DNA from: Pseudomonadales bacterium | Lineage (GTDB): Bacteria; Pseudomonadota; Gammaproteobacteria; Pseudomonadales; Azotimanducaceae | DNA length: 64,000 nucleotides | Direction of reading: 5' to 3' | Assembly: GCA_022827905.1 (NCBI GenBank) | Contig: JAJEIQ010000027.1 | Location: forward strand, 1-64,000 | In this document: piece by piece, positions 6,243 to 62,522 of the stretch | How the letters are laid out: every line of letters begins with the position of its first letter | Numbering within the stretch: the first letter of the stretch is position 1 | Program-made: the position numbers and the translations under genes | The notes under the pieces: generated by a model | What the model saw: the letters and a program-made list of their open reading frames with translations, nothing else | Told to the model about the DNA's origin: nothing | Database searches by the model: none

Positions 6243-6776
6243 CTAGCCAGTTCGATCGAAGATCCGCTTGTAGCGCAGGGTCTTGCCCTTGCGCGGGTTG
6301 ATCGTCACCGACATCAGCAGAGTGCCGTCTCTCTGGACTTCCAAGCTGCGCTTCACCTTGCGTGTGGTGGATTCGTAGTTGGAGGTCAGCTTGCGCCGGG
6401 ACCATTGGCTGCGCATGCCACGATAGGCGCCGGGCCTGAGTTCCTCGCTGCCGACGCCTTGGTAGGTGAGCAGCAGGCTGTCGTCGAGCCGCTCAACGGT
6501 GAAGGCTTGGCAGCGCAGCATTTGCGGCGGTCCCGGGCTGCCGATCTCCGGCTCCGGGCCCGGTGAGCCAGTGGGCACGGGAATGCCGCCGACGCTGACG
6601 CTGGTGCTGAAATTTCCGCCGAGGCCTTCCCACCAGTGGCTGTTTGAATTGTCGGGCTGCACCGCCTCGGTGCGCTCGACGTTCAGCGCCCAAGCACCCA
6701 CCAAATCAAGCTCCCCGCCCCAGGCGGCGAGCGAAAACAGGGCGCACAGCGCCAGACTCAAGGCGCTTCGAATCAT
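6243..6776 (-). CDS. Small exported protein of unknown function
   Basis: A 177-residue protein with a clear signal peptide (MIRSALSLALCALFSLAAWG, cleavage near residue 20). The mature part opens with ELDLVGAWALNVERTEAVQP, a pattern seen in small periplasmic lipocalin-like proteins in which a modelled ligand-free tendency toward beta strands follows, and ends in a basic region (TLRYKRIFDRTG). I do not recognise a specific family. A Pro/Gly-rich loop (PVPTGSPGPEPEIGSPGPP) interrupts it. Start ATG 6776 is chosen for the signal peptide. It is divergent from glpS with only 23 bp between the starts, so the two share a promoter region. Confidence 0.65.
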   Translation of the reverse strand: MIRSALSLALCALFSLAAWGGELDLVGAWALNVERTEAVQPDNSNSHWWEGLGGNFSTSVSVGGIPVPTGSPGPEPEIGSPGPPQMLRCQAFTVERLDDSLLLTYQGVGSEELRPGAYRGMRSQWSRRKLTSNYESTTRKVKRSLEVQRDGTLLMSVTINPRKGKTLRYKRIFDRTG

Positions 6777-6799
6777 GGTTTGCAGTGTAGCATGGCCCC

Positions 6800-7750
6800 A
6801 TGCTGAACATCCGCGCACTCGATCTTGGGGGACCACAGGCCTTCAGCCACCGATTTGCCGAAGGCGCCATCACGGTGGTGCTCGGCCGCAACAACGCCGG
6901 TAAGACGCGGCTGGCGCGGGCAGTGGCCGGCTTGGATCCCTCACCGCCGGGCACCCTGTTCATCAACGGCAACGACGTCAGCGGCCTCAGTGCCCGGCGG
7001 CGGCGGGTGGGGCTGGTCTATCAGGCCTTCGTCAACTACCCAAACTGGAGCGTCTTCGACAACATCGCCTCTCCCTTGGCCGCAAAAGGCGGCAAGCGCA
7101 AAGAAAAAAGCGAGATAGCCCGCACCGTCAGGGCGTTGGCTGACCGACTGCAGATCGGCGAGCTGCTCGACCGTCGGCCCGAATCCCTGTCGGGAGGCCA
7201 GCAACAGCGGGTGGCCATCGCCCGGGCCCTCGCCCAGCAGGGGGACGTGCTGGTCATGGATGAGCCCTTGGTGAACCTGGACTACAAGCTGCGAGAGGAA
7301 CTGACGCTGCAACTGCGCGAGATTGTTCAGGCCGATGAACTGACGGTGCTCTACCTCACCTCGGACCCGAAGGATGCGTTCACGCTGGGCGATCAAGTGG
7401 TGCTGCTGCACGACCGCGCCAAACTGCAGAGCGGAACCCCCCTTGATCTGTACAACGCGCCGGTCTCGCCCGAGGCGGCGGACCTGATGAGCGACCCGGG
7501 CGTCAACCGCCTCGACGACCAAACGCTGGTGCGCCCGGAGCACCTGCGCCTCGCGCCGCAAGCGGACACCGACGTGCCCTTCGATGCCGAGGTCAACAGC
7601 GTCGAGACCAGTGGCGCGGAGACCTTCCTGCATTGCCGCGTCAACGAATCGGACTGCGTGGCCCGCCTGCCCGGCATGGTGCCGGTCGAGGCGGGCTCGA
7701 AGGTGCGCCTGTATGTCGGCCGGGATGACCTCATTCACATCGGCACTTGA
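6800..7750 (+). CDS. glpS: Glycerol-type ABC transporter ATP-binding protein GlpS
   Basis: A 316-residue MalK/UgpC-class ATPase with a C-terminal TOBE-like domain. Walker A is GRNNAGKT (29-36), the signature LSGGQ (130-134) is intact and Walker B is VLVMDEP (150-156). The switch histidine is replaced by Ser188 (YLTSDP), which fits GlpS of the rhizobial glycerol transporter GlpSTPQUV, where this position is also not His. The partner GlpT keeps His but has lost its signature, so the dimer would have one working ATP site. Its stop overlaps the glpT start (TTGA). The operon order S-T-P-Q-U supports the name; substrate (glycerol) is inferred from the family. Confidence 0.82.
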   Translation: MLNIRALDLGGPQAFSHRFAEGAITVVLGRNNAGKTRLARAVAGLDPSPPGTLFINGNDVSGLSARRRRVGLVYQAFVNYPNWSVFDNIASPLAAKGGKRKEKSEIARTVRALADRLQIGELLDRRPESLSGGQQQRVAIARALAQQGDVLVMDEPLVNLDYKLREELTLQLREIVQADELTVLYLTSDPKDAFTLGDQVVLLHDRAKLQSGTPLDLYNAPVSPEAADLMSDPGVNRLDDQTLVRPEHLRLAPQADTDVPFDAEVNSVETSGAETFLHCRVNESDCVARLPGMVPVEAGSKVRLYVGRDDLIHIGT

Positions 7751-8868
7751 TTCGCTTCACGCCCTTGGGCGAAAGTGACTCGGTCAATCAGTGGATTGTT
7801 GCCTTGGCTGCCATCACCGTTTCGGGGTTGCATCATCGCTATGAACCGGGCGCCGCGCCGGTTCTGGACGGCGTTGATCTCGAATTGGGCGACGGCGAGG
7901 CCCATGCCGTTCTAGGCGGTTCCGGGGCCGGCAAGACAACGCTGCTGCATCTGCTGGCCGGCCTGCTGCGCCCGAGCGCCGGAACCATCGAATTCGACGG
8001 GCGGGCGGTCACGGAGGCCAGCGCCGCGGAACGCCATGTGGCCCAGGTGTTTCAATTTCCCGTGCTCTATCCCGCCCTGGACGTCGCGGGCAATCTCGGC
8101 TTTCCGCTGGTCAATCGGGGCTGGGACGCAGCCGCGGTTCGCCGCCGGGTTGGCGAAGTGGCCGAGCTGTTGTCCATCGCCCCGCTGCTGTCTCGAAAGC
8201 CCAAGACGCTGTCACTCTTCGAGAAGCAGCTCACCGCCATCGGCCGCGCCTTGGTCCGCCCTGACGTCGCCTTGGTGCTGCTCGATGAGCCGCTGACCGC
8301 CGTCGAACCTGCCGCCAAGTGGCGGTTGCGGCAAGCCTTGAAGGCTGTTCAGAGCGAACTCGGGCTGACCATGATCTACGTTACCCACGATCAAACGGAA
8401 GCCCTGACCTTCGCCGAACGCATCACGTTGCTGCATCAAGGCAAGGTGCTGCAAACGGGCCCGCCCGAGGCCCTCTATGAACGCCCGGCCCATGAGGCGG
8501 TGGCCCGCTTCATCGGCTCGCCGGGCATGAACTTGCTGGACGGCGAGGTTGCGGCGGGACGGATTCGCCTGAACGCCCAGGCGCTCGGCACAACATCGGC
8601 TGCGGACGGCCGCTGCATCCTGGGGTTCCGTCCGGAATGGGCAGCGATTGGCGAACAAGGCGTTCCCGTCACCGTGCGCAGCACTCGGCCCTTGGGCTCT
8701 CTCGGCGGCGTGGCCACGGGGCTGGTGACCGCCAAGTTGGACGGCAGGGTGATTCATGTGCAGCAAGCACTTGATGGCTTGAGTGGTGGTCAGGCCCGTC
8801 TGCGCATCGACCCGGCCCGAATTCTGCTCTACCGCGACGGCTGGCTGGTGGACGATGCAGCGCACTAG
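7747..8868 (+). CDS. glpT: Glycerol-type ABC transporter ATP-binding protein GlpT (ATPase, not the antiporter)
   Basis: A 373-residue second ATPase of the transporter. Walker A GGSGAGKT (57-64), VFQFPVLYP around the Q-loop and the switch histidine His214 (YVTHDQTEAL) are intact, but the signature is degenerate (LSLFEKQ, 155-161) and the D-loop reads TAVEP. This is the complement of GlpS. The name follows the rhizobial ABC system and must not be confused with the E. coli glycerol-3-phosphate antiporter. The TTG start at 7747 overlaps the glpS stop; a shorter start near residue 18-22 (before ITVSGLHHRY) is possible. Confidence 0.82.
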   Translation: MIRFTPLGESDSVNQWIVALAAITVSGLHHRYEPGAAPVLDGVDLELGDGEAHAVLGGSGAGKTTLLHLLAGLLRPSAGTIEFDGRAVTEASAAERHVAQVFQFPVLYPALDVAGNLGFPLVNRGWDAAAVRRRVGEVAELLSIAPLLSRKPKTLSLFEKQLTAIGRALVRPDVALVLLDEPLTAVEPAAKWRLRQALKAVQSELGLTMIYVTHDQTEALTFAERITLLHQGKVLQTGPPEALYERPAHEAVARFIGSPGMNLLDGEVAAGRIRLNAQALGTTSAADGRCILGFRPEWAAIGEQGVPVTVRSTRPLGSLGGVATGLVTAKLDGRVIHVQQALDGLSGGQARLRIDPARILLYRDGWLVDDAAH

Positions 8869-9721
8869 CAACAAGGCTTGGCTGGCTGTGGCGCCGGTGG
8901 TGCTGGTGGTCGCCTTCACTGCCGTCGCACCCCTAATGACGGTCGTCAACTATTCCGTGCAGGACATCTTCGATGTGCAAACGCGCCTTTTCGTTGGCCT
9001 CGATTGGTACCGGGAGACCCTGCGTGACCCCCGTTTCCTGGAGGCGCTGGCGCGGCAGTTGGGATTCAGCGCGCTGGTGCTGGCCTTGGAGATTCCGCTG
9101 GGCATCTGGATTGCCCGCTGCATTCCCCTGCAAGGCCGGATGACGGTGGCCTTCCTCATCATTCTCGCGGTGCCGCTGCTGATTCCCTGGAACGTGGTGG
9201 GCGTCATTTGGCAGATCTTCGCCCGCCCAGACATCGGGTTGCTGGGCGCGGCGGTGAAGGCTCTTGGGGTGTCCTACAACTACACGAGTTCCGCGGTCGA
9301 TGCTTGGATCACCTTGGCGTTGATGGACGTGTGGCACTGGACGTCGCTGGTGGCGCTGCTCTGCTTCGCGGGCTTGGCGGCCATTCCGCCGGCCTACTAC
9401 CAAGCCGCCGAACTCGACGGGGCGAGCCGCTGGCAGGTGTTCCGCCATGTGCAGCTGCCGCACTTGAAGTCGGTGCTGACCATCGCCGTGCTGCTGCGGC
9501 TGATGGACAGCCTGATGATCTACACCGAACCCTTCGTGCTGACCGGCGGCGGGCCCGGCGCAAGCACCACCTTCCTAAGCCAGTACCTGACCAGCATGGC
9601 GGTCGGCCAGTTTGATCTCGGCCCGGCGGCGGCGTTCTCGGTGCTGTACTTCCTGCTGATCCTGCTGTTGTGCTGGTTGTTCTACACCAGCGTGATGAAG
9701 CGCGGCGATGAAGCGGCTTAG
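8855..9721 (+). CDS. glpP: ABC transporter permease GlpP
   Basis: A 288-residue inner-membrane permease with about six hydrophobic segments and the cytoplasmic EAA-type coupling loop YYQAAELDGASRWQVFRHV around residues 186-204. It would pair with GlpQ to form the translocation pore for glycerol or a similar polyol. ATG 8855 overlaps the end of glpT by 14 bp, fitting translational coupling. Confidence 0.85.
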   Translation: MQRTSNKAWLAVAPVVLVVAFTAVAPLMTVVNYSVQDIFDVQTRLFVGLDWYRETLRDPRFLEALARQLGFSALVLALEIPLGIWIARCIPLQGRMTVAFLIILAVPLLIPWNVVGVIWQIFARPDIGLLGAAVKALGVSYNYTSSAVDAWITLALMDVWHWTSLVALLCFAGLAAIPPAYYQAAELDGASRWQVFRHVQLPHLKSVLTIAVLLRLMDSLMIYTEPFVLTGGGPGASTTFLSQYLTSMAVGQFDLGPAAAFSVLYFLLILLLCWLFYTSVMKRGDEAA

Positions 9722-9736
9722 AAGGGGGCACGCCCC

Positions 9737-10545
<809 letters not shown>

Positions 10546-46612: not shown

Positions 46613-47290
46613 GTGACGGTTCGCGTCGCATCAGTCGCCGTCTTGGTGGTCGCCTTGCTGGCTTCGCTGGGGCTCGGCGCGCGCTGGTACACATACGGGC
46701 ACTTCGATCCAATCCACGCCGCCTTCGCCCTGTTTTTCTCGATCAACCTGCTGATCTGCTATTGGGAGGCCTGTCTGTTCCTGCGCCGGGACTACATCGA
46801 GACGCGGGCGGAGCATTGGCGTGAGCGGCAGCGTGAAACGGGCCGGATTCCCGCCTTCGAGTTTCTTGCCACCAAGATTCCTGTGGCGCGGGTGCTCTCA
46901 CCCACGGTTTGGGCCGACGTGTGGGCCACCTACGCTCAGTATGACGGCGCCTTCGCCGACCGGCGGACATTTGGCTTCAACGTCGACACCGCTAACGGCT
47001 TTGTGACGCTGGTGCCGACGGCGATTCTGTTGGCGGCGTATTCCGTCGGCTTCCTGCCTGCGCTTGTGGCGGGCATGATCGGGCTCATGCTGTTCTGGGT
47101 GTGGACCTACAACACATCCGTGTACTTGGCCAGCTTCTTCATAGCGAAGCGGCATCGGCGCCTCAGTGGACGCGAGTTGGCCTTGGCCGTCGTGGCGGTC
47201 AACTCCCCGTGGATTTTGTTCCCCCTGCTCGGGCTGTACGTCTCCGTTCGCCTGGTTGTGGACGGCGACTACCGCGTCATGGGGCTGTGA
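46613..47290 (+). CDS. Membrane protein of unknown function, possibly EXPERA-like
   Basis: A 225-residue protein with about five hydrophobic segments. I do not recognise a bacterial family with certainty. Its pattern resembles EXPERA-domain proteins such as the sterol Delta8-Delta7 isomerase EBP: a Glu at the end of an early helix (NLLICYWEACLFLRRDY), then a W-x4-Y-x2-YD segment (VWADVWATYAQYDGAF), then a final helix shaped NSPWILFPLLGLYVSVRLV. The sterol operon begins 39 bp downstream on the other strand, tail to tail. If correct it would be a sterol isomerase or sterol-binding protein; this is inference from visual similarity only. Confidence 0.4.
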   Translation: MTVRVASVAVLVVALLASLGLGARWYTYGHFDPIHAAFALFFSINLLICYWEACLFLRRDYIETRAEHWRERQRETGRIPAFEFLATKIPVARVLSPTVWADVWATYAQYDGAFADRRTFGFNVDTANGFVTLVPTAILLAAYSVGFLPALVAGMIGLMLFWVWTYNTSVYLASFFIAKRHRRLSGRELALAVVAVNSPWILFPLLGLYVSVRLVVDGDYRVMGL

Positions 47291-47329: not shown

Positions 47330-48688
47330 TCACGCCTTCTTGAAGCGGTAGCCGTACATGAGGCGGCCGAAGAAGTTGAACCACTTCCTGGCTTCGGCGT
47401 CCTGAAACGGGTAGTCCGCGCCCATCTGCCGGGCAGTCGCCAGACCGGACAGGAAACAGTGTTCCTGGCTGTTCATCAGCGTGTGCGCCCCGCAGTGCCA
47501 TGTCCGCCGTTTGCCCTGCGCGAAGCGGAACAGATGGACCAGCAGGGCCACGTGGCGCACATCGTGGACGACGTGTTGAAACCACCATGTCTTGACGATC
47601 TTGTCCTTGTCGATTGGGCTGATTGGGTTGTAGGTCACCAAGCAGGGCTTATCTGAGCCATGTGCCCACGGCTGCTGGTTGTGCATGATGTAGGTGATTT
47701 CGTAGTTGTCGGGCCGCGCGCCGTACTGCGCGATGTGGTTGCTTCGGGTGGCCAGCGGCTCGGCGGCGTTGTCCGGCAGCACGCTGGCGTCCGAATGGAC
47801 GATGGCGTGGTTGTGCAGTTCGCTCTCGTAGCGAATCGAGGAGAGCAGCCAGGCCTCAAAAAAGGTCGGCTTGTCCAAGGCCATCAGCGTTTGGTTGGCG
47901 TTGCAGGCGAACACCACGTCATCGAAGGTCTCGCGGTTGCCCTCGGCGTCCTCGACGATCACGTGGTCGGCGAGCCGATGCACTTTGCGGACCGGCCGGT
48001 TGAGATGGATCCTGTCTTGAAAGCCCGCCGACAGTTCCTTGTATATGCGTCGTGTGCCGCCTTCCCAGGTCTGCATCGGCGTTGCCGTGACGATGTCGAA
48101 GAACTCCAGGTAGCGGCAAAACAGCGAGGCGGGCATGTCGAAGACGTTGGTGGCCATCAGGAAGTTGACGAACATCGGCTTGAGGACCTTGTAGCGGAAG
48201 TCCCCGGAGTACCGGCCGAAGTTGAGGACCGCGCCCATGCTGATGTAGTTGAAGGGGTTGAGGGCGTTGAGCAGCTTCGACCGGGTCTTGTTGAGTTGGG
48301 CGAACCACTGCAGGCGCTTCAGGAGCTTCTGGAACCGGTCGATCTCCGGCTGCAGCGCCCGGGCAATCTCGCTGTCCATGTCGTGGGCGTAGATCTGGTC
48401 GTGGTACTTAACGCTGTAGCTGAACCGAGTGCGCAGGAGGTCAATGCCGAATTGCTGCGTCAGGAGCAGGATGTGGTGGTACAGCGAGGGGATGCAGGCG
48501 GTGACCGAAATGTCGAACGGAATCGAGCTGCCGTCCTCCTGTAGCATGTCCGCGGTGATGGCGTTGCCGCCGATTTGGGACTGGGCCTCGAAAAGTTGAA
48601 ATTCGAACAGGTCGGGCCGCTGATGCAGCGCCCAGGCCACACCGAGCCCCGACACGCCGCCGCCGACAATGGCAATTCTTCTTGGCAT
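47330..48688 (-). CDS. FAD-dependent oxidoreductase (amine-oxidase/COG2907-like), last gene of sterol operon
   Basis: A 452-residue flavoprotein. The N terminus RIAIVGGGVSGLGVAWAL is a dinucleotide-binding GxGxxG fold followed by an ExxxxxGG element (FEAQSQIGGNA), as in amine oxidases, desaturases and carotenoid-type oxidoreductases. A C-terminal FAD closing motif is weak. It follows the epoxidase-cyclase gene by 59 bp on the same strand, so it probably acts on sterols, for example double-bond reduction, desaturation or C3 oxidation. Which step is unknown. Confidence 0.75.
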   Translation of the reverse strand: MPRRIAIVGGGVSGLGVAWALHQRPDLFEFQLFEAQSQIGGNAITADMLQEDGSSIPFDISVTACIPSLYHHILLLTQQFGIDLLRTRFSYSVKYHDQIYAHDMDSEIARALQPEIDRFQKLLKRLQWFAQLNKTRSKLLNALNPFNYISMGAVLNFGRYSGDFRYKVLKPMFVNFLMATNVFDMPASLFCRYLEFFDIVTATPMQTWEGGTRRIYKELSAGFQDRIHLNRPVRKVHRLADHVIVEDAEGNRETFDDVVFACNANQTLMALDKPTFFEAWLLSSIRYESELHNHAIVHSDASVLPDNAAEPLATRSNHIAQYGARPDNYEITYIMHNQQPWAHGSDKPCLVTYNPISPIDKDKIVKTWWFQHVVHDVRHVALLVHLFRFAQGKRRTWHCGAHTLMNSQEHCFLSGLATARQMGADYPFQDAEARKWFNFFGRLMYGYRFKKA

Positions 48689-48747: not shown

Positions 48748-51700
48748 TCAGCCCGCTGCCGCGGCGGCGGCGGGCGGCTTCACGGCAGGCTGCCGGGCGA
48801 GGCGCCGCCGCTCGTAGAGGCCGAGTGCGTGCAGGGGGAAGTACTGCCGATACAGGGCGTAGTCTAGGAGCGCAGTGCGGAAAAACACGCCGGCCATGTC
48901 CTGCCGGGGCCATGTTCCATCGACGCTTTGGGTGTCAGTCAAAAACTGGGCGCCACGGGAAATCGCCGTCCAGTTGGGGTCGCCCGCTTCCAGGAGCGCG
49001 ATCAGCGCCCACGCCGTATGGATGACTTGGCTTTCCTCGTGCGCGACGTAACGGCCAGCCACGCATCCGCTGTGGTGCTCACCCCATCCCCCGTCGTTGT
49101 GCTGGCGGTCCAGCAGCCATTGACAGGCCAAGCGCACCGCGGGGTCGCTCAGGCTGGCTTCGGCGGCAATCAGACCCTTGATGCCGAAGTAAGTGCCGTA
49201 GATGAACTGCACACCCCAGGCGCCGCGCCAGGAGCCATCGCTGGCTTGTGTTCGGCGCAGCCAGGCGTTGGCCCTGGCAATGGCGCCTGTCGTTGCCTGG
49301 TCCACGACCTCGGGAGAGTGCGCTTTGCAGGCGGCAAGCGCCGCAAGGCAGGAGGCGGTGCACTCGACGTAGGAGTGTTCGGTCATCGAATCAGCAAACA
49401 TCTCGGCGGGATTGAGCCACTCCAGGCTCACTCGGGAGCGTTTCGATTCGTAGCTCCCAAAGCCGCCGTTCGCGTTCTGGCCCCGCAGCATGAACTGAAC
49501 CGCATCGCGCAGTGCGCCGCTGTCCACCGCCTCCCGGTTGGCCGAGACCATTCCGAGCACCGCCTCCGCCGTGCAGTCCGACACTGGCCAACCATGCCAG
49601 GCGCCAGGGAAGCACCAGCCGCCCTTGGGGTCGGCCCGATAAGCTTCGCGAAAGCCGGCGAAGCGGTCGGTGATCTGTTGGCGGCGCAGGAAGTCAGCGC
49701 CCCGTCGGAGCGCGTTCTGCACACCGGCAAGATCAGGCGCCGTTGCCAATGCCTGCAGGGCGAACCCCGTATCCCAAGTGACGCTTCGGGCCCCCGTGAC
49801 TCGGGTGCCCTGCGCCTCGTCCTCCCAGATCCAACCTTCAAGCTGCGCCAGTGCGGCCTCGCAATCGGCGTCATTCGGATCATGCAGCCATAGGGCTAGG
49901 ATGTTGAGGAAGCCGCTGACGGGCGAAATGCTCGCGTGGTTGGAATGGCGCAGTTCCCATCGAATGTGCCGGATGAGCGCCTCGACGCATCGCCCACGCA
50001 AACCCTTTAGGCCAATCCGCTCGAAGGCGCGCGCCATCGCGTACCCGGCCCGCAGCCAAATGCTGGGCTTGGCGTAGAGATCGCCCTCCCGCAAGCGGTT
50101 GCGGCTGGCGGGGAAATTGACGTTGGCAAACCCCTCTGGAAACAGTTCTCCTCGCAACGCGTCGATCAACGGCGTAACGGGCATCTGGAAGCGATTCGAG
50201 TAGACCGCAGCCATCGCCGCGTAGATGAGGCGAGTGTGGCAATACCAGTTCGAAGGATGCAGCGGCAGCCAGCGCGGCAGGCGCCATAGTTCCGGCACAA
50301 CGGGATTCACCCCTCGCCAGTCCCAAAGATTGAGCAGGGCCAGCCAGAACTTTCCCCAGCTTGGTATGGACGATACCCGCTCGGCCCGCATGAACCGTCC
50401 GGCCCGTTGGATGAGCGCGTCGTCCGGCTCAACGCCGAGCAGTCGCGCGGCAACGTAAACCAAGGTGGTGACGAAGAGGTAGGGCGATGAGTGCGCGTGC
50501 AAACCCCAAAGGCCGCCTTCCAGCCGGGTCCGCTCGAACTGGCGCAGCACCAGCCGGCGCCGCTCCGCTGGGAGTGGCCGGTCGATGATGTGGTGCAATA
50601 GGACGTATTGCGCGGTGAGCATGGGGCACCAAACCATTTCGCCTTCCCAAGCCCCGTCCGCGTCTTGCAGAGACAGCAGGCGTTGGGTTGCCCGCTGCAG
50701 GGCGGTGTCAGCGGCGACTGGCGCACCGTCAGAAGGGCGCGACGGCCGGGGAACGGGAACTTGCGATGGCATGGTGGTCAGAAACGCTCGGGCCAGGTTG
50801 TCTTGGGCCCGCTGAGCCCTTTCATTGCTCGCGTCGGCCCTGTTGCGCAATTCCCGGACGCCGCGCAGAAAATGCCCGACGCGCACCGCTAGGGACCGAA
50901 CGATGTCGCGGGCTTGGTGCCACGCAATCGCATGGTAGGACCGCAAGATCGTCCCGACAACGGTGCGGACGACGATCGTGTAGAACGTGAGACCCAGCCT
51001 GGAGAGTGAGGTGTCTTCACAGGCGAGCAGGTTCATGGCCTGGTCCCGGAGCTTGGGATTGGCCCGCCAGTTCCGGTAAATCGTTTGCCTAAGTGCCGAC
51101 GCTTCCATCCGGTGATCGGCGAAGACCTCGTACAAGCCCATGGCGAGGATCTCGGGAGCGCGGATTTCCAGCGAACGCTGGGCAACGAACTCGTCAAAGC
51201 TCTCTGCGTCAGCCAGCGTGAGCGCATCGCCGAAACCTAGGGTCATGCCCACCGCGGTCAGCGGGTGGTAGTGCCCCGCCGCGTCGCCAATAAGGACTCG
51301 ACGCGAGTTCCCGTAGGTCAACCGAGGTCTCAGCTCGTTGGCAGCGGCTTGGTACTTCCCCTCCCGCAGGGCTTCAACAAACCCGGAACGAACCGACTCG
51401 GGGATCAGGCTGGCGTAGGACTCCGAGAGCATGCTCACCCGGTCTCGAGGATTCCAGTGGTTCAATGGGACGTCGGCGATGATGCGGACGCGGTGCGCGC
51501 CTAGGCGAAACATGAAAATCGGCCCTGGCCCGCCCAGCACCACGTGCCCGTATCCCTCGTAGGGCAGGGTCGCCCCTTCCGCCACAAGGCCGACCATCCG
51601 GGAACAGGTCATGCGCTTGGTGTTCAGGCCCAGCGACTGACGGACGACCGAGGCGCGGCCGTCGGCACCGACAATCCGTGCGGCCGGCAAGGATTGCATG

Positions 51701-52122
51701 GTGCCATTCAACGCAAATGTAAGCTGGCCGTCTTCGACTGACCGCACCCGTGCGCCTAGGTAGAAGTCCACTCCGGATTCGTTCTCGACCGCGGCGTGCA
51801 GTTTCGAGATGAGCGCCTCATGCTCGTAGGCCAAACCGAGGGTTCCGTCCGGATAAGGGAGCACGATCGGTTCCGAATGATCTTCCGGAAACACCACGAA
51901 TCCCTTGCCCATGTTGTCGTTGGGCCGGGCGTCGAAGTCGATCTCGAGATTGCGCAACATGCGCAGGGCGGTTGGGTGGAGCCACTCGCCGGCCAATCGA
52001 CGAGCCCCCTTGGGATTGGCTTCGAGCAGAGCGACCCGGGCGCCCTTGCGGGCGTGGGCGAGTGCGCAAACGCTGCCCACCGGGCCGGCGCCGACGACGG
52101 CGATGTCGTAGCGCGCCTGCAC
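48748..52122 (-). CDS. Fused squalene epoxidase - oxidosqualene cyclase
   Basis: One uninterrupted 1124-residue reading frame. Residues 1 to about 440 form a flavin monooxygenase of the squalene epoxidase type: GAGPVG (11-16) and RVLIGDAAGHYHPLTAVGMT (275-294). A low-complexity linker (about 440-475; PVPRPSRPSDGAPV) leads to a cyclase domain (about 475-1110) with QW repeats (QDADGAWEGE, QNANGGFGS, QASDGSWRGAWG, QHNDGGWGE, QSVDGTWP) and the catalytic motif WPVSDCTAE (Asp849), which marks an oxidosqualene rather than squalene-hopene cyclase. It would convert squalene to a protosterol such as lanosterol in one protein. The start is GTG 52122 or TTG 52140, which overlaps the CYP51 stop. An internal ATG (50772, Met451) has no clear ribosome-binding site. 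Confidence 0.9.
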   Translation of the reverse strand: MQARYDIAVVGAGPVGSVCALAHARKGARVALLEANPKGARRLAGEWLHPTALRMLRNLEIDFDARPNDNMGKGFVVFPEDHSEPIVLPYPDGTLGLAYEHEALISKLHAAVENESGVDFYLGARVRSVEDGQLTFALNGTMQSLPAARIVGADGRASVVRQSLGLNTKRMTCSRMVGLVAEGATLPYEGYGHVVLGGPGPIFMFRLGAHRVRIIADVPLNHWNPRDRVSMLSESYASLIPESVRSGFVEALREGKYQAAANELRPRLTYGNSRRVLIGDAAGHYHPLTAVGMTLGFGDALTLADAESFDEFVAQRSLEIRAPEILAMGLYEVFADHRMEASALRQTIYRNWRANPKLRDQAMNLLACEDTSLSRLGLTFYTIVVRTVVGTILRSYHAIAWHQARDIVRSLAVRVGHFLRGVRELRNRADASNERAQRAQDNLARAFLTTMPSQVPVPRPSRPSDGAPVAADTALQRATQRLLSLQDADGAWEGEMVWCPMLTAQYVLLHHIIDRPLPAERRRLVLRQFERTRLEGGLWGLHAHSSPYLFVTTLVYVAARLLGVEPDDALIQRAGRFMRAERVSSIPSWGKFWLALLNLWDWRGVNPVVPELWRLPRWLPLHPSNWYCHTRLIYAAMAAVYSNRFQMPVTPLIDALRGELFPEGFANVNFPASRNRLREGDLYAKPSIWLRAGYAMARAFERIGLKGLRGRCVEALIRHIRWELRHSNHASISPVSGFLNILALWLHDPNDADCEAALAQLEGWIWEDEAQGTRVTGARSVTWDTGFALQALATAPDLAGVQNALRRGADFLRRQQITDRFAGFREAYRADPKGGWCFPGAWHGWPVSDCTAEAVLGMVSANREAVDSGALRDAVQFMLRGQNANGGFGSYESKRSRVSLEWLNPAEMFADSMTEHSYVECTASCLAALAACKAHSPEVVDQATTGAIARANAWLRRTQASDGSWRGAWGVQFIYGTYFGIKGLIAAEASLSDPAVRLACQWLLDRQHNDGGWGEHHSGCVAGRYVAHEESQVIHTAWALIALLEAGDPNWTAISRGAQFLTDTQSVDGTWPRQDMAGVFFRTALLDYALYRQYFPLHALGLYERRRLARQPAVKPPAAAAAAG

Positions 52123-52136
52123 TAGGGCGGCGCCGT

Positions 52137-53534
52137 TCAACGAAAAACGCTCGCTTGCGAGCGACGGCGGTAACGGATCCGGCACGGCGTGCGAGGCCCG
52201 GTCACCCAGCTGCCGTAGTTCGGCCCGGGAAATGCGCTGTCGAGGGAAAAGTCGAACCGTTCCGATAGCACCGTCCAGATGGCCTTGATTTGCATGATGG
52301 CGAAGTGCTTGCCCATACACCGGTGCCGTCCGCCGCCAAAACCGATCAAGGCATACTGGTGCTGTTTTTCTTCGGAGTCGGGCCCAGCGAAACGATCCGG
52401 GAGGAATCGCTCGGGGTCGGCGAACACCTCGGGCAGCCGGTGGGAGACCGCCGGCGACACCATCGCCAAGGTGCCGGCGGGCACTAGGCGGTCCCGGTAC
52501 TGCAGGGGCCTGAGCACCTTGCGGATGAGCAGGATCAGCGGCGGGTGCAGCCGCTCGCACTCACGCACGGCGTTTTCCAACTGCGGTTGCTGCTTTAGGC
52601 CCGCGAAGCTCATGGCGCCCCCTTCGCCGTACGCCGACCGCACCTCCTCCCGGACTCGTTCGAGGTGGGCGGTTGCCCTGAACAGCTCCAATCCGGTCCA
52701 AGTGGCGAGGACCGCGCTGGTGTGTTGGCCGGCGAACAACGCCGACAGCAGGATTCCGGTCACCTCTTCGTCGGTCAGCGCCCGACCGTCCTTGTAGCGG
52801 GCTTGCATGAGCGTCTGCATGAAGTCGTGGGACTGCGCGCCGGAACGCCGCCGCTCCCGCATGATGCGGCTGAAGATGTCGGTGACTTTGCGCCGTGCCC
52901 GGTCGCGCTTTCGATGTGCGGGGATGGGCAGTCTGGGGAGGAAGAAACCCAGCGTGTTGATGCCGTTTTGAAGGTCGTGATAGGCCTCGGCGAAACCGGC
53001 GTCCACCTCATTCCTGACTTCCTCGCCGAGGAAGCAGCGGCTGGCGATGTTGACCGTGAGTTGGTTCATCGCCACCGGAAGATCCAGCTCCCCTTCCTCG
53101 TCCAGGGAGTCGGCGAACAGGTTCGACTCCTCGAACATGATGCGCGCGAACCTTTCCATCGCCGATTCGCGCAACGCCGGAAAAAGGAATCCGATTTGCT
53201 CGCTCATGAGTTCCGGTGAGACGTCGTAAGCCACGCCGCGGCCGAAGATCGGCACGGTGAACTGATAGACGGATTTGGCGTCCAGTTGATCGTCAGGCGC
53301 CTTGAAATAGGCGGTGTGGGCGTCGGGCCCGGCGAACAGAACGAATTTCTGGGGACCGAGCCGGAACCGGTAGAGGTCACCGAGTTCGCGCGAGCCGCGG
53401 GCCAGCATCGAGACCGGGTTCCTCTGGAACTCGCCTAGATGGCCGAGCAGCGGCCAGCCCCCAGACAGCTCCGGAACGGCGCTGGCCGCCTGCTTCGAAC
53501 GCAGGGTTGCGGCTCCGTTGGATCCGTACGCCAT
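52137..53534 (-). CDS. Sterol 14alpha-demethylase, cytochrome P450 CYP51
   Basis: A 465-residue P450. The CYP51 substrate-recognition signature is clear: YQFTVPIFGRGVAYDV (B'-region) and LFAGQHTSAVLATW (I helix). The ExxR helix is ECERLHPP and the haem loop is FGGGRHRCMGKHFA with the Cys ligand. It removes the 14alpha-methyl group of lanosterol-type sterols, giving a Delta14 double bond for the next enzyme. No N-terminal membrane anchor is evident, as in other bacterial CYP51s. ATG 53534 lies 8 bp after the reductase stop. Confidence 0.93.
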   Translation of the reverse strand: MAYGSNGAATLRSKQAASAVPELSGGWPLLGHLGEFQRNPVSMLARGSRELGDLYRFRLGPQKFVLFAGPDAHTAYFKAPDDQLDAKSVYQFTVPIFGRGVAYDVSPELMSEQIGFLFPALRESAMERFARIMFEESNLFADSLDEEGELDLPVAMNQLTVNIASRCFLGEEVRNEVDAGFAEAYHDLQNGINTLGFFLPRLPIPAHRKRDRARRKVTDIFSRIMRERRRSGAQSHDFMQTLMQARYKDGRALTDEEVTGILLSALFAGQHTSAVLATWTGLELFRATAHLERVREEVRSAYGEGGAMSFAGLKQQPQLENAVRECERLHPPLILLIRKVLRPLQYRDRLVPAGTLAMVSPAVSHRLPEVFADPERFLPDRFAGPDSEEKQHQYALIGFGGGRHRCMGKHFAIMQIKAIWTVLSERFDFSLDSAFPGPNYGSWVTGPRTPCRIRYRRRSQASVFR

Positions 53535-53542
53535 CGCCGCCC

Positions 53543-54619
53543 TCAGTAGATGTAAGGCAGCATCGAAAAACGTGCCCGCTGCCGGTACTGTTCCCAGAGA
53601 GCGCCGTATTTGGCGTGGCAGCGCCGGTCGTCGCGCCGGGACCGGTGCCACAGCAATCCCGTGAGCCAGAGGGGCAGCAGCCAAGGCACCCAGGACTCGA
53701 ACCCGGTGGTCAGCATGAAGGCGACGTAGATGCAGATCTCGCCGGTGTAGTTGAGGTGGCGTCCGATGCCCCAAAATCCGGACACTAGGAGCCGCCCCTC
53801 AAGGGTCTCGGCCGGCCGGCCCCAGATGCTGACATTGGGATTCTGCCTGAAGCGGTGCTTCTGCTCATTGGCGCCCCGGAACAGCCAGAAGCCGAACGCA
53901 AACAACGCCACCAGCAGGGCGGCGGCAGTGGGTGAAAGCGTATCCGGGGCGTGAACCAGCCACCAGCCGGCGATGCAATAGAAGAACGGCACGAGCACGA
54001 AGTTCCCCCATGTGAGCATCCACCCGAAACGCTCGCTGACGATGTCCCACGTGTGGATCATTCCGTATTCGAACTGGAAGTAGTTGAGCACGTAGAGGAA
54101 GGTGAAAATCTGGTAGAGCGTCATCGCCAACGTCAGCTCGCCGTAGGTTTCGTATTGGACGGCGGCAAACGACAGGTTGAACAGCGCCAGGCCAATGAGG
54201 GATGGACGGTAGCTGTAGAACTTCAAATCCATGCCGAGCCAAGTGGGGTTGAGGGTCCGGCCGAAGAAGAAGCCGCGCCAGAATCCCGCCGGCGCGCCTT
54301 GGGCGCCGGCGCCTTGCCAATAGAGCCAACCGGAGAGCGCGAAGGCGAATACGTTGGCCACGACCAACAGGGGGACGAAGTACGCATGCAGCACGGACAG
54401 GGAGAACCAACCCGCAAACTGGGCAAGGCCGGCTGCGGCCAAGGTGGCGAGGAACAGGGCGAGGCCGTTGAGCTTGCAGGTGCGCGACGCGTTGTCGCCA
54501 TCGGTCAATTCAAACCGCCGTCCGGGTAGCACCAGGGAACCGATGAACAGCACGGCGACGAACGCCAGCAGCATGGCCGCCGCCCCGAGGAGAGCGCCAG
54601 CGGACAGCGGGGACAGCAT
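53543..54619 (-). CDS. Delta14-sterol reductase (ERG24/ERG4 family)
   Basis: A 358-residue multi-pass membrane reductase. The ERG4/ERG24 signature is visible as LLVSGFWGIGRHLNYTGEI, and the NADPH-binding C terminus as RRDDRRCHAKYGALWEQYR and SMLPYIY. An upstream family element is PTWLGMDLKFYSYRPSLIG. It would reduce the Delta14 bond left by CYP51; Delta7 or C24 reductase activity cannot be excluded from sequence. The start ATG 54619 directly follows the sdmA stop and has a GGAG upstream. Confidence 0.88.
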   Translation of the reverse strand: MLSPLSAGALLGAAAMLLAFVAVLFIGSLVLPGRRFELTDGDNASRTCKLNGLALFLATLAAAGLAQFAGWFSLSVLHAYFVPLLVVANVFAFALSGWLYWQGAGAQGAPAGFWRGFFFGRTLNPTWLGMDLKFYSYRPSLIGLALFNLSFAAVQYETYGELTLAMTLYQIFTFLYVLNYFQFEYGMIHTWDIVSERFGWMLTWGNFVLVPFFYCIAGWWLVHAPDTLSPTAAALLVALFAFGFWLFRGANEQKHRFRQNPNVSIWGRPAETLEGRLLVSGFWGIGRHLNYTGEICIYVAFMLTTGFESWVPWLLPLWLTGLLWHRSRRDDRRCHAKYGALWEQYRQRARFSMLPYIY

Positions 54620-54620
54620 G

Positions 54621-55727
54621 TCAGCCCGCTCCAGCCCGGGCATGGCCGTTTTCCGCTTCACGCGCCAGATGCTCCCGCCACTTGCGGACGGTCACGGTCT
54701 GGAAGGCCTGTACCGCCGGGCTCAATTCGACGGGCGTGGCGTCCCAGTGCCGCTCGTAACCGGCTTGCTCCGCTTCAACCGCAACGCGATCCTGATCGAG
54801 CAGGGGCGCGATCAGCAGGCGGTTGGAGAGCTTCAGGACGGCCTCCATGGCGAACCGGGGAATCCGCACCGGCAACAGGGGCAACTTTAGCGACTTGAAG
54901 TAGAACAGAAAGAACACGCGGGTGGTGCGTTCGTTGATCGGCAGCACGAACAGCCAGTGCTTGATGGCACCATCCGTGTTCGACCACTGATAGGGGTACT
55001 CGAAGCAAAGGTCCATGTGGCTGGTGTCGATCCGGTCGTGTTCGACGAAACGCCCGGAGATGCGCCCCCGCCCCACCTGTGCGTCGTAGGCGACGTGCAC
55101 ATCGTCGCCGACCGTCTCGCAGCGGGTGAGCTTGGCGTTGTCGAATGGCCGGTAGCGGCGGTGCAGATGCGCGTGGGAGAAGTCGCTCACGTTGTCGATG
55201 ATCATGGAATGGTGGGCTGACCAAGTGAAGACCAGCGGCACGCAGGCCCATCGATTGGGGCCTTCGAGCTCGGGGATGTCCGGAATCTTGTGCGTCTGCG
55301 CCAACTCCGGGTCGCCGGGAAACAGCCAGACCAAGCCGTAGCGCACCTTCACGGGATAGGTTTTGAGGCGCAGTTTCGGGAAGCTTCGTCCGTACCGCTC
55401 GTGCGGGATTTCGACGCACTGCCCTTGTTCATCGTATTCCCAGCCGTGGTAGGCGCACACCAACCGGCAGCCCTTGACCTCGCCCAAGGAGAGCTTGATC
55501 TGGCGATGCGCGCAACGGTTGTCGACCGCGTGGAACGAACCGTCCTCAGAGCGGAACAGCGCGATGGAGCGCTTCCAGAAAACCACTTCGACCACGGTGC
55601 CCGGCGCCACTCGGCGGACTTCCTCGACCGCGTACCAGTAGTTGGGGTCCATGCCAGCGGCGCGCGCCTGCTGGCGCAATCGCGGGGCGTCCTCGAAGGC
55701 GGGTGGCGGGTGCGGTGCGATGTTCAT
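54621..55727 (-). CDS. sdmA: Rieske oxygenase, SdmA-like sterol C4-demethylase
   Basis: A 368-residue Rieske non-haem iron oxygenase. [2Fe-2S] ligands are Cys72/His74 (CAHRQ) and Cys91/His94 (CAYHGWEYD); the iron-site segment is DNVSDFSHAHLHRRYRPF. In Methylococcus capsulatus SdmA oxidises the C4 methyl group of sterols and works with the SDR SdmB. The assignment rests on the Rieske family plus the location between sdmB-like and Delta14-reductase genes. ATG 55727 overlaps the upstream SDR stop (ATGA). Confidence 0.85.
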   Translation of the reverse strand: MNIAPHPPPAFEDAPRLRQQARAAGMDPNYWYAVEEVRRVAPGTVVEVVFWKRSIALFRSEDGSFHAVDNRCAHRQIKLSLGEVKGCRLVCAYHGWEYDEQGQCVEIPHERYGRSFPKLRLKTYPVKVRYGLVWLFPGDPELAQTHKIPDIPELEGPNRWACVPLVFTWSAHHSMIIDNVSDFSHAHLHRRYRPFDNAKLTRCETVGDDVHVAYDAQVGRGRISGRFVEHDRIDTSHMDLCFEYPYQWSNTDGAIKHWLFVLPINERTTRVFFLFYFKSLKLPLLPVRIPRFAMEAVLKLSNRLLIAPLLDQDRVAVEAEQAGYERHWDATPVELSPAVQAFQTVTVRKWREHLAREAENGHARAGAG

Positions 55728-56848
55728 GTCGGCGGGACGCTGGCCGCTAGGCCGGCCTCGCCGGAGGTGGCCGAATGGGCCATTCGATCCTCCGCGTTCA
55801 AGTTGGGTGGCTTGGCGCGCGGGTTCTTGATGGCGTTGCGCTGGTAGTGAAACGCGTACGCTTCCTGAACCGCGGCCCGAATGCTGGTCGGCTGGTAGCC
55901 CAGCTCGCGCTTGGCCTTTTCGTTGTTGGCATGGCGGCGCTGCTTCAGCAGCCGGATGGCGCCGGGCGTGAAGCGCTGGGGAAAGCTGGGGTGGTAGCGG
56001 CTCAGATAGAAGCTCGCCACTTCGGAAAAAACGTACATCAGGGGCGTCGGAATCCGCCGATTCGGCCGGGGAATGCCCGAGACCTCCTCGTAGAGGTCGA
56101 TGATGTCGGAAATGGTCTTGTATTCGGTGCTGAAGATGTACTTCTCGCCAGTGCGGCCCTTGCTCATGCACAACAGGTGTCCTTGCACGATGTCCCGGGC
56201 CGCGACGAACGCGAATCCGCCGTCCACGTAGGCATGCAGCTTGCCGTGGCTGTAGTCGCACAAGGTTCTTCCCAGACGCGAGGGGACGAAGTCGGCGCCG
56301 CCGACGACCGCGCAGCAGGTTGCGATGACGACATCCTGGCCTGCCGCGACGGCGCGCAGGCACTCGTGTTCAACGAGAACCTTGCTGCGCTCATAGGGCA
56401 TCGTGCGTTGCATGGGGTAGAACTGCATCGTCTCATCGCTGGGTGCCGACGGGTCGTCAAGGTCGTAGCCCACTGCGCTGAAAGACCCGGTGACCACCAC
56501 GCGGCCGGCCTCGGCCTCCCGTGCGGCCTGAAGGACGTTGCGGGTGCCGAGCACGTTGCACTCAAACACTTCCCGGCGGTGGGCGTCGTTGCCGTCGATG
56601 GTGGAAACCATGGCGGCGCAGTGATAGACGCCTTGGCAACCTTCGATGGCGCGCCGGGTGGCCGCAAGGTCGCGGATGTCCGCGTAGGCCTGTTCCACGT
56701 CAAGGCCCTCCAACGCCTCGTTGCGGCTCTCCCGTCTCAACAGCACCCGAACCCGGACGCCGTCGGCCAGGAGCCGGCGCACGAGATTGGCGCCAACGTG
56801 TCCGGATGAGCCTGTGACCAAAACCGTATCTGACATATTTATTGTCAT
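55724..56848 (-). CDS. sdmB: NAD(P)-dependent sterol dehydrogenase/decarboxylase, SdmB-like SDR
   Basis: A 374-residue extended short-chain dehydrogenase of the 3beta-hydroxysteroid dehydrogenase type. The cofactor loop VTGSSGHVGANLVRRLL and the catalytic Tyr-Lys (PYERSKVLVEHE) are intact. In sterol C4 demethylation it would oxidise the 3-hydroxyl and promote decarboxylation of the C4 acid made by SdmA. It is the first gene of the sterol operon. The start is ATG 56848 or 56836; neither has a clear ribosome-binding site, which hints at a leaderless or weakly initiated message. Confidence 0.85.
   Translation of the reverse strand: MTINMSDTVLVTGSSGHVGANLVRRLLADGVRVRVLLRRESRNEALEGLDVEQAYADIRDLAATRRAIEGCQGVYHCAAMVSTIDGNDAHRREVFECNVLGTRNVLQAAREAEAGRVVVTGSFSAVGYDLDDPSAPSDETMQFYPMQRTMPYERSKVLVEHECLRAVAAGQDVVIATCCAVVGGADFVPSRLGRTLCDYSHGKLHAYVDGGFAFVAARDIVQGHLLCMSKGRTGEKYIFSTEYKTISDIIDLYEEVSGIPRPNRRIPTPLMYVFSEVASFYLSRYHPSFPQRFTPGAIRLLKQRRHANNEKAKRELGYQPTSIRAAVQEAYAFHYQRNAIKNPRAKPPNLNAEDRMAHSATSGEAGLAASVPPT

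Positions 56849-60278: not shown

Positions 60279-60301
<23 letters not shown>
59363..60301 (+). CDS. Phosphomevalonate kinase (GHMP family)
   Basis: A 312-residue GHMP kinase. The N terminus APGKVVLWGEYAVLAGAPAA, the glycine loop GLGSSAALCAAIE and the C-terminal PCGAGGGDVGAAFG are all seen. Its place between mvaD and the HMGR-mevalonate kinase gene assigns it to the phosphomevalonate step. GTG 59363 overlaps the mvaD stop; its own stop overlaps the next gene by 23 bp. Confidence 0.87.

Positions 60302-62522
<2,221 letters not shown>

Follow-up and report, generated by a model that had tools for sequence, protein, structure and literature searches.

A 64,000-nucleotide window (positions 1 to 64,000 of the forward strand of contig JAJEIQ010000027.1, GenBank assembly GCA_022827905.1) from a Pseudomonadales bacterium of the family Azotimanducaceae contains a long open reading frame in which a squalene epoxidase (SE) is followed by an oxidosqualene cyclase (OSC). 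This raises the question of whether the two enzymes are genuinely made as one polypeptide and, if so, what the polypeptide does and how widely it occurs. Examination of the frame and its relatives establishes that the gene is a well-conserved new example of an SE-OSC fusion that has already been published but is little described. The fusion and its parts are as follows, with residue numbers counted from GTG 52122 unless stated otherwise:

48748..52140, minus strand: the whole fusion gene; preferred start TTG 52140, alternative GTG 52122, stop 48748-48750
50785..52122, minus strand: squalene epoxidase domain, residues 1-446 (PF01494, PF08491, 6c6n, invariant flavin adenine dinucleotide (FAD) positions)
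50704..50784, minus strand: linker, residues about 447-473, its length kept and its sequence free; contains the internal ATG 50772 (Met451)
48811..50703, minus strand: oxidosqualene cyclase domain, residues 474-1104 (PF13249, PF13243, TIGR01787 over cut-off, TIGR03463 under cut-off, 1w6k, conservation)

The frame runs on the minus strand from 52122 to 48748 as 1124 codons and a stop, with zero internal stops, in agreement with the single open frame of 1124 residues that an earlier note on this DNA had reported without giving a strand; the plus strand of 48748..52122 contains several stops. The nearest relative (L033) lacks GTG 52122, which is therefore probably not the start. TTG 52140 is shared with both L033 and L034 and overlaps the stop codon of the adjoining CYP51 gene in the bases TTGA; it is probably the true start and gives a protein of about 1130 residues.

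Both halves are recognizable as complete domains. The N-terminal half matches the Pfam models FAD_binding_3 at residues 5-304 and SE (Squalene epoxidase, PF08491) at 151-391, both over cut-off, the latter with 89.7 bits against a gathering score of 20.1, and residues 6-300 align with the squalene monooxygenase structure 6c6n (E = 7e-24). In the C-terminal half the N-terminal squalene cyclase domain is found at 476-769 and the C-terminal one at 781-1104, again both over cut-off (168.4 and 196.7 bits); the squalene/oxidosqualene cyclase subfamily model TIGR01787 is passed with 509.2 against a cut-off of 322.7, and residues 479-1105 align with the lanosterol synthase structure 1w6k (E = 3e-128). 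We take both of these structures to be human. The epoxidase half carries GAGPVG, Glu34, DG at 154-155 and GD at 279-280, and its C-terminal region ends at about LARAFL. An alignment of 56 fused proteins showed that positions 11, 13, 16, 34, 154, 155, 279 and 280 are invariant in all of them, and with them what we take to be the GxGxxG motif, the glutamate ending the first Rossmann repeat and the DG and GD motifs of the FAD site. The cyclase half displays DCTAE at 849-853, the acid motif of oxidosqualene cyclases in contrast to the DXDD of squalene-hopene cyclases; D849, C850, A852 and E853 are invariant in the 56 proteins and T851 is kept in 55. A visual comparison with the unfused enzymes of locus L127 suggests that nothing is lost from the fused epoxidase as far as its C-terminal region, and that the fused cyclase lacks the long N-terminal extension of its unfused counterpart. 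Thus, one frame contains both domains complete with the tested catalytic residues kept, and the claim of the earlier note that a complete epoxidase and a complete DCTAE-type cyclase lie in one protein is borne out by the Pfam matches, the alignments with 1w6k and 6c6n and the conserved residues. A chance open frame was considered and is ruled out by the strong homologues of both halves.

The reality of the join was evaluated against relatives at several distances. A search of 58 genomes, its own included, at E 1e-30 recovered matches in six, five of them full-length in one frame (100, 85, 73, 68 and 59% identity) and the sixth cyclase-only at 29% identity. A scan of one genome per species yielded 302 pattern matches that included 230 relatives, of which the best 80 were examined; three of the four kin from the 58-genome search are also among these 80 loci. 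The set leans towards fused genes, since matches were ranked by the full-length query. In 78 of the best 80 relatives (of 230) both enzymes lie in one unbroken frame over the matched stretch, at 57-85% identity. Stops occur near query residue 651 in L105 and near 1012 in L116, which also begins at a contig end (1130-residue numbering), both far from the linker, and L108 and L111, the latter at a contig edge, match only from residues 38 and 46 of the 1130-residue form. Within the gene's own family 18 of 200 genomes have a match, of which 13 are full-length and fused; four more are incomplete away from the linker, two being cut by contig ends (G897, G934), one ending 48 bases from a contig end (G898) and one having a frame break near residue 1018 (G914).

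These comparisons bear directly on two ways in which the fusion could be only apparent. An assembly or sequencing error might have joined two neighbouring genes, as the genome is a draft of 81 contigs, but the recurrence of the same join in the 78 divergent scan loci, in the 13 family genomes (some of whose contigs are shared with the scan) and, by its description, in the published msb cluster (PMC7074536) makes such an error vanishingly improbable; an assembly artefact as the source of the fusion is ruled out by this conservation. The stop or frameshift at the linker that the earlier note had named as its refutation is, by comparison, seen in none of the 80 scan loci. Alternatively, two proteins could be made, with the cyclase starting internally, for example at ATG 50772, or with the chain being cut in the linker. 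This ATG does exist in frame, and an ATG occurs somewhere in the 50 codons before the cyclase in 61 of 77 relatives; but ATG 50772 has no Shine-Dalgarno-like stretch upstream of it, and in the remaining 16 relatives the 50 codons that precede the cyclase's WEGE motif are free of ATG. Further, a 4-base Shine-Dalgarno match 3-13 bases upstream of the codon was found at 3 of 76 ATG, 4 of 33 GTG and 10 of 117 TTG codons before the cyclase, rates no higher than at random codons (292 of 2400). This test is weak because even the TTG start of the fusion gene is preceded by a match of only 3 bases and these bacteria may not rely on such sites. The linker itself measures 53 residues from residue 425 to 478 in 34 of the 56 aligned proteins and 48-59 in all of them, with letters that vary widely, and the uncorrected ratio of nonsynonymous to synonymous differences (pN/pS) in 16 chosen sister pairs is 0.58 for the linker (413 codons), 0.23 for the epoxidase and 0.18 for the cyclase. 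On account of these values and the narrow length range the linker looks translated, under weak constraint in sequence and visibly constrained in length. The short Pro/Ser-rich linker of the earlier note thus stands as a linker at about residues 447-473, but its Pro/Ser richness is not conserved among relatives; likewise, the independent cyclase start at ATG 50772, which it had named as a second possible refutation, finds no echo in the comparison, the ATG not being conserved. Hence, the production of two proteins is very unlikely here, and a separate cyclase start is unlikely as a general rule.

The earlier note had also thought the architecture possibly new, and here the literature decides otherwise. 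Mohanty et al. 2020 (Mar Drugs 18:124, PMC7074536) described the fusion as MsbE, encoded in the msb sterol cluster of a gamma-proteobacterium that lives in symbiosis with the sponge Melophlus, and it is mentioned again in 2023 (PMC10070321). As described in 2020, MsbE (record MT026193.1, compared by its published description) has an N-terminal epoxidase, a C-terminal cyclase and the key lanosterol-type valine in one protein, and the msb cluster encodes an NAD(P) oxidoreductase, a Rieske oxygenase, a sterol reductase and a C-14 demethylase, the same kinds of enzymes as those upstream in our window. The window thus presents an MsbE-type arrangement, with SE then OSC in one frame accompanied by C14 reductase, C14 demethylase and Rieske genes; the described msb locus differs in having a sterol methyltransferase gene, msbF, where the window has an amine-oxidase-like gene next. 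Brown et al. 2023 (PMC10070321) refer to "fused SMO/OSC homologs", the same domain pair, when trimming cyclase sequences for a tree, in a methods sentence that gives neither sequences nor a count. Kelly et al. 2022 (PMC9531527) described clusters of steroid genes (CSGs) in metagenome-assembled genomes (MAGs) from Ircinia sponges, reporting an operon of C14 reductase, CYP51 and lanosterol synthase (LSS) in 115 of 537 MAGs from 10 phyla, and argued for horizontal transfer of CSGs. At 3765 nt their LSS alignment is as long as a fused gene would be; the main text is without the words fused, fusion or bifunctional, and squalene epoxidase is not among the five enriched genes that it lists. We infer that their LSS is the SE-OSC fusion. 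An annotation pipeline that assigns a single name to each gene would label the fusion a lanosterol synthase and list the epoxidase as absent. Word searches of the text at hand for PMC4919349, PMC13277303, PMC10202945, PMC10942540 and PMC12004948 returned no mention of an SE-OSC fusion; the fused protein met in this set was the C-14 demethylase-ferredoxin of Methylococcus.

The functional implications of the fusion are best seen in conjunction with its gene neighborhood:

52137..53774, minus strand: cytochrome P450, CYP51-like sterol 14-demethylase (PF00067), open frame with an ATG at 53534; the stop codon of this gene and the TTG start of the fusion overlap
53543..54661, minus strand: sterol C-14 reductase of the ERG4/ERG24 family (PF01222)
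54621..55727, minus strand: Rieske oxygenase, MsbB-like, sterol tailoring (PF00355, PF19112); likely start ATG 55727
55724..56848, minus strand: NAD-dependent epimerase / 3beta-hydroxysteroid dehydrogenase-like dehydrogenase, MsbA-like (PF01370, PF01073)
47330..48688, minus strand: FAD-dependent amine-oxidase-like protein, next gene downstream (PF01593)

The CYP51 name rests on context and on the descriptions in PMC7074536 and PMC9531527. The order dehydrogenase-Rieske-C14 reductase-CYP51-fusion recurs among the scan loci. Counting those with enough flank (2 kb for CYP51, 3.5 kb for ERG24 and 6.5 kb for the Rieske and dehydrogenase genes), CYP51 lies at most 200 bases upstream of the fusion in 58 of 69 loci, ERG24 is upstream in 56 of 68, the Rieske gene in 52 of 63 and the dehydrogenase in 53 of 63; the CYP51 count for L092 rests on a short match of 39%. 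The 11 CYP51 misses comprise, by record title, four loci of Acidimicrobiia/Acidimicrobiaceae (L045, L058, L087, L098), three of Alphaproteobacteria (L069, L085, L100), one of Gemmatimonadetes (L095), L046 and L099, and L050, which is counted as a miss because its CYP51 alignment overlaps the fusion by 7 bases and the filter dropped it. A search of the bacterium's own genome gave no second cyclase match and two other, weak matches of the FAD-monooxygenase type (26 and 30% identity). It also has one gene of the squalene/phytoene-synthase family and, on another contig, one partial match to the sterol-methyltransferase C-domain; mevalonate-pathway genes lie further along in the window.

Taken together, these features make it very probable that the protein is a bifunctional enzyme that turns squalene into a lanosterol-type sterol and feeds the enzymes of the operon. 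In the reaction sequence that we propose, the N-terminal FAD monooxygenase half would epoxidise squalene to 2,3-oxidosqualene, the C-terminal half would protonate the epoxide with Asp849 and cyclise it to a lanosterol-type sterol, and this sterol would then become the substrate of CYP51, of the C-14 reductase and of the Rieske/dehydrogenase pair, whose genes immediately precede the fusion in the operon. We infer the two activities, the lanosterol-type product and co-location at the membrane from these predicted domains, residues and neighbors. The nature of the product is suggested by Val847, which aligns with position 453 of 1w6k, as counted on the alignment, and is kept in all 56 fused proteins. 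In the bacteria that Wei et al. 2016 (PMC4919349) tested, this position told lanosterol producers apart from cycloartenol producers, and, in the portions of that paper at hand, it is the only one cited as conserved in bacterial cyclases. Several observations weigh against a bifunctional lanosterol-forming enzyme that feeds an adjoining operon: 1) the NCBI 2,3-oxidosqualene cyclase model TIGR03463 scores 715.8 bits, under its cut-off of 851, though it is nonetheless the top-scoring NCBI model. 2) Ala778 and His843 are found instead of the Thr381 and Cys/Gln449 (human numbering) of lanosterol synthases, the histidine at 843 being the cycloartenol-type letter and column 778 adjoining a gap where the alignment is uncertain by one. 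3) The fusion is without an adjoining CYP51 in 10 of the 69 loci. 4) One family member, G942 (locus L141), has the epoxidase and the cyclase in two frames that overlap, with the break precisely at the linker.

Because of the misfit of Ala778 and His843 with the eukaryotic lanosterol synthases, we regard a lanosterol-type product as likely, a notch below the bifunctional role itself. The competing view, that the cyclase half makes another triterpene, such as a cycloartenol- or parkeol-like or otherwise rearranged product, would draw on these same two residues and on the TIGR03463 score; but it has to contend with the invariant Val847, with the presence upstream, in most loci with enough flank, of CYP51-like and C-14 reductase genes for 14-methyl sterols, and with the annotation of MsbE, as described in PMC7074536, as a lanosterol cyclase on account of the key valine, and we hold it to be improbable. 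Joining the halves would fix a 1:1 ratio and keep two enzymes that act on water-insoluble substrates side by side at the membrane. The fusion could be a mere tether, in which each half acts on its own, oxidosqualene is released into the membrane and the benefit lies in co-expression and equal dosage, and we lean slightly towards this possibility: the linker is variable and loosely constrained in sequence, a split version occurs in one family member and unfused pairs are found in other bacteria. On the other side, the narrow range of linker lengths and the retention of the fusion in nearly all of the best 80 loci, a set biased to full-length matches, hint that geometry matters. Tethering without channelling is thus at least as likely as a direct hand-over of oxidosqualene. 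If the two sites do exchange oxidosqualene directly, the gene would be a ready-made tool for sterol production; it also lends itself to testing whether fusing enzymes is of benefit when intermediates are insoluble, as a naturally split relative is available for comparison.

The phyletic distribution of the fusion is wide and patchy. It is present in 4 of 9 genomes of its own genus, which together with the 18 of 200 in the family fits gain and loss of the whole operon. Its own class has matches in 6 of 369 genomes, three of them fused (G000, G620, G476) and three with an unfused cyclase (G614, G580, G688). Among the 398 genomes sampled from its own phylum the fusion occurs only in its own genome; in the other 46 matching genomes the hits are weaker (best E 1e-56) and, among the matches listed, limited to the cyclase half, although some extend as far back as about residue 426. 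Record titles, which gave the phylum for 76 of the best 80 scan loci, assign 48 to Pseudomonadota, 9 to Actinomycetota, 6 to Chloroflexota, 5 to Nitrospirota, 2 each to Binatota, Acidobacteriota and Gemmatimonadota and 1 each to Rhodothermota and Bacteroidota. Hence, by record title, the fusion occurs in nine phyla. Two titles name a sponge (L060, L070), and most of the other bins are presumably sponge-derived, going by their names. These data suggest that within one large clade of bacterial sterol operons the fusion is the norm and not an oddity.

In the cyclase tree the phylum labels cluster (9 changes over 9 groups against a shuffled mean of 27.1) and the other phyla are nested among Pseudomonadota rows (6 changes, 1 forced by starred branches), which hints at transfer between phyla. 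Rooted with unfused cyclases, this tree has a main clade of 29 rows with support of 99/98, and places an unfused Planktothrix cyclase beside the fused L119 and the unfused L120 with weak support (86/65); the genome of L120 has the usual operon on another contig, which breaks off at the very point at which a cyclase would be expected. The epoxidase tree was rooted on one long branch; in it the unfused L149 and L150 group with the fused L119 and with L126, which ends at a contig edge so that its fused state is not visible (97/100), and the group falls among fused rows. Such a placement is at odds with a strictly single origin and may result from the rooting; on balance the fusion likely arose once.

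The split form in G942 (L141; G942:C366, locus positions 6684-10237) comes from outside the 80 scan loci. A TGA within the linker closes its epoxidase frame and overlaps a possible GTG start of the cyclase frame, and the epoxidase end has a short tandem repeat. None of the usual operon neighbours is matched at this locus, and the assembly of G942, at 74% completeness in 600 contigs, is of low quality. The locus lies inside the 29-row main clade, next to L142, and is most simply read as a secondary split, or else as a frame error. Since G942 carries split halves, the fusion would not be essential everywhere. L142 itself (G924:C114, locus positions 7130-9238) is a partial second copy beginning at about residue 413 with two in-frame stops, and G924 has an intact fusion copy elsewhere in the same genome.

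Unfused pairs show other arrangements. L127 and L129, from the same class, encode unfused SE and OSC homologues with the cyclase preceding the epoxidase, the reverse of the fusion, and the same reversed order is seen in L150 on the Streptomyces plasmid pSSP121038; in L149, on plasmid p2 of Planktothrix agardhii, the epoxidase is on the strand opposite to the cyclase. The unfused cyclases are 47% (L127), 32% (L129), 55% (L149) and 42% (L150) identical to the fused one. A plasmid search for carriers of the fusion returned two records, both with an unfused cyclase. L149 (NZ_LR882940.1) is a plasmid triterpene or sterol cluster near transposases, with the unfused cyclase, a separate epoxidase-like gene, a phytoene/squalene synthase family gene and three P450 genes.

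One locus appears to have extended the fusion further. L093 (9998-14503), from a MAG of Candidatus Versatilivorator vitaminiformans that its title assigns to Acidobacteriota, has one frame of 1581 codons comprising epoxidase, cyclase and a sterol methyltransferase, the tail matching PF08241 and PF08498 (69.7 against 21.7 bits). This tail is found only in L093 among the best 80 loci, and in 61 genomes searched around L093 the triple frame was recovered from its own genome alone. A methyltransferase gene on the same strand directly trails the fusion, within 100 bases, in six other loci (L050, L051, L053, L054, L063, L070), which makes a triple fusion plausible; the joint contains a C-rich tract (13.3-13.5 kb of the locus), for which reason a frame error is possible, and the genuineness of the fusion is thus plausible though unconfirmed. 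More speculatively, the SE-OSC fusion might be a natural channelling unit that originated once or on very few occasions and moved as a cassette, chiefly via sponge bacteria, into at least nine phyla while gaining parts, as in L093. We regard this broader scenario as doubtful. Were it true, the L093 chain would take squalene all the way to a sterol methylated in its side chain, and the scenario would explain why the Ircinia survey lists lanosterol synthase but no squalene epoxidase among its enriched genes.

Some other genes around the fusion also recur. The downstream amine-oxidase-like gene is found downstream of the fusion, at any distance and on either strand, in 13 of 68 loci, and a protein at 46613-47290 (plus strand), without a Pfam match, in 17 of 68, likewise on either strand; both are possibly sterol-related. 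Further along the window, a 747-residue frame at 60279-62522 (plus strand) joins HMG-CoA reductase (PF00368 at 21-393) to a GHMP (mevalonate-type) kinase (PF00288 at 509-590). A limited literature search, within the texts it covered, met no mention of this second fusion. Single matches of about 2.26-2.28 kb at 62-63% identity, judged by nucleotide span only, occur in L055, L056, L057 and L083.

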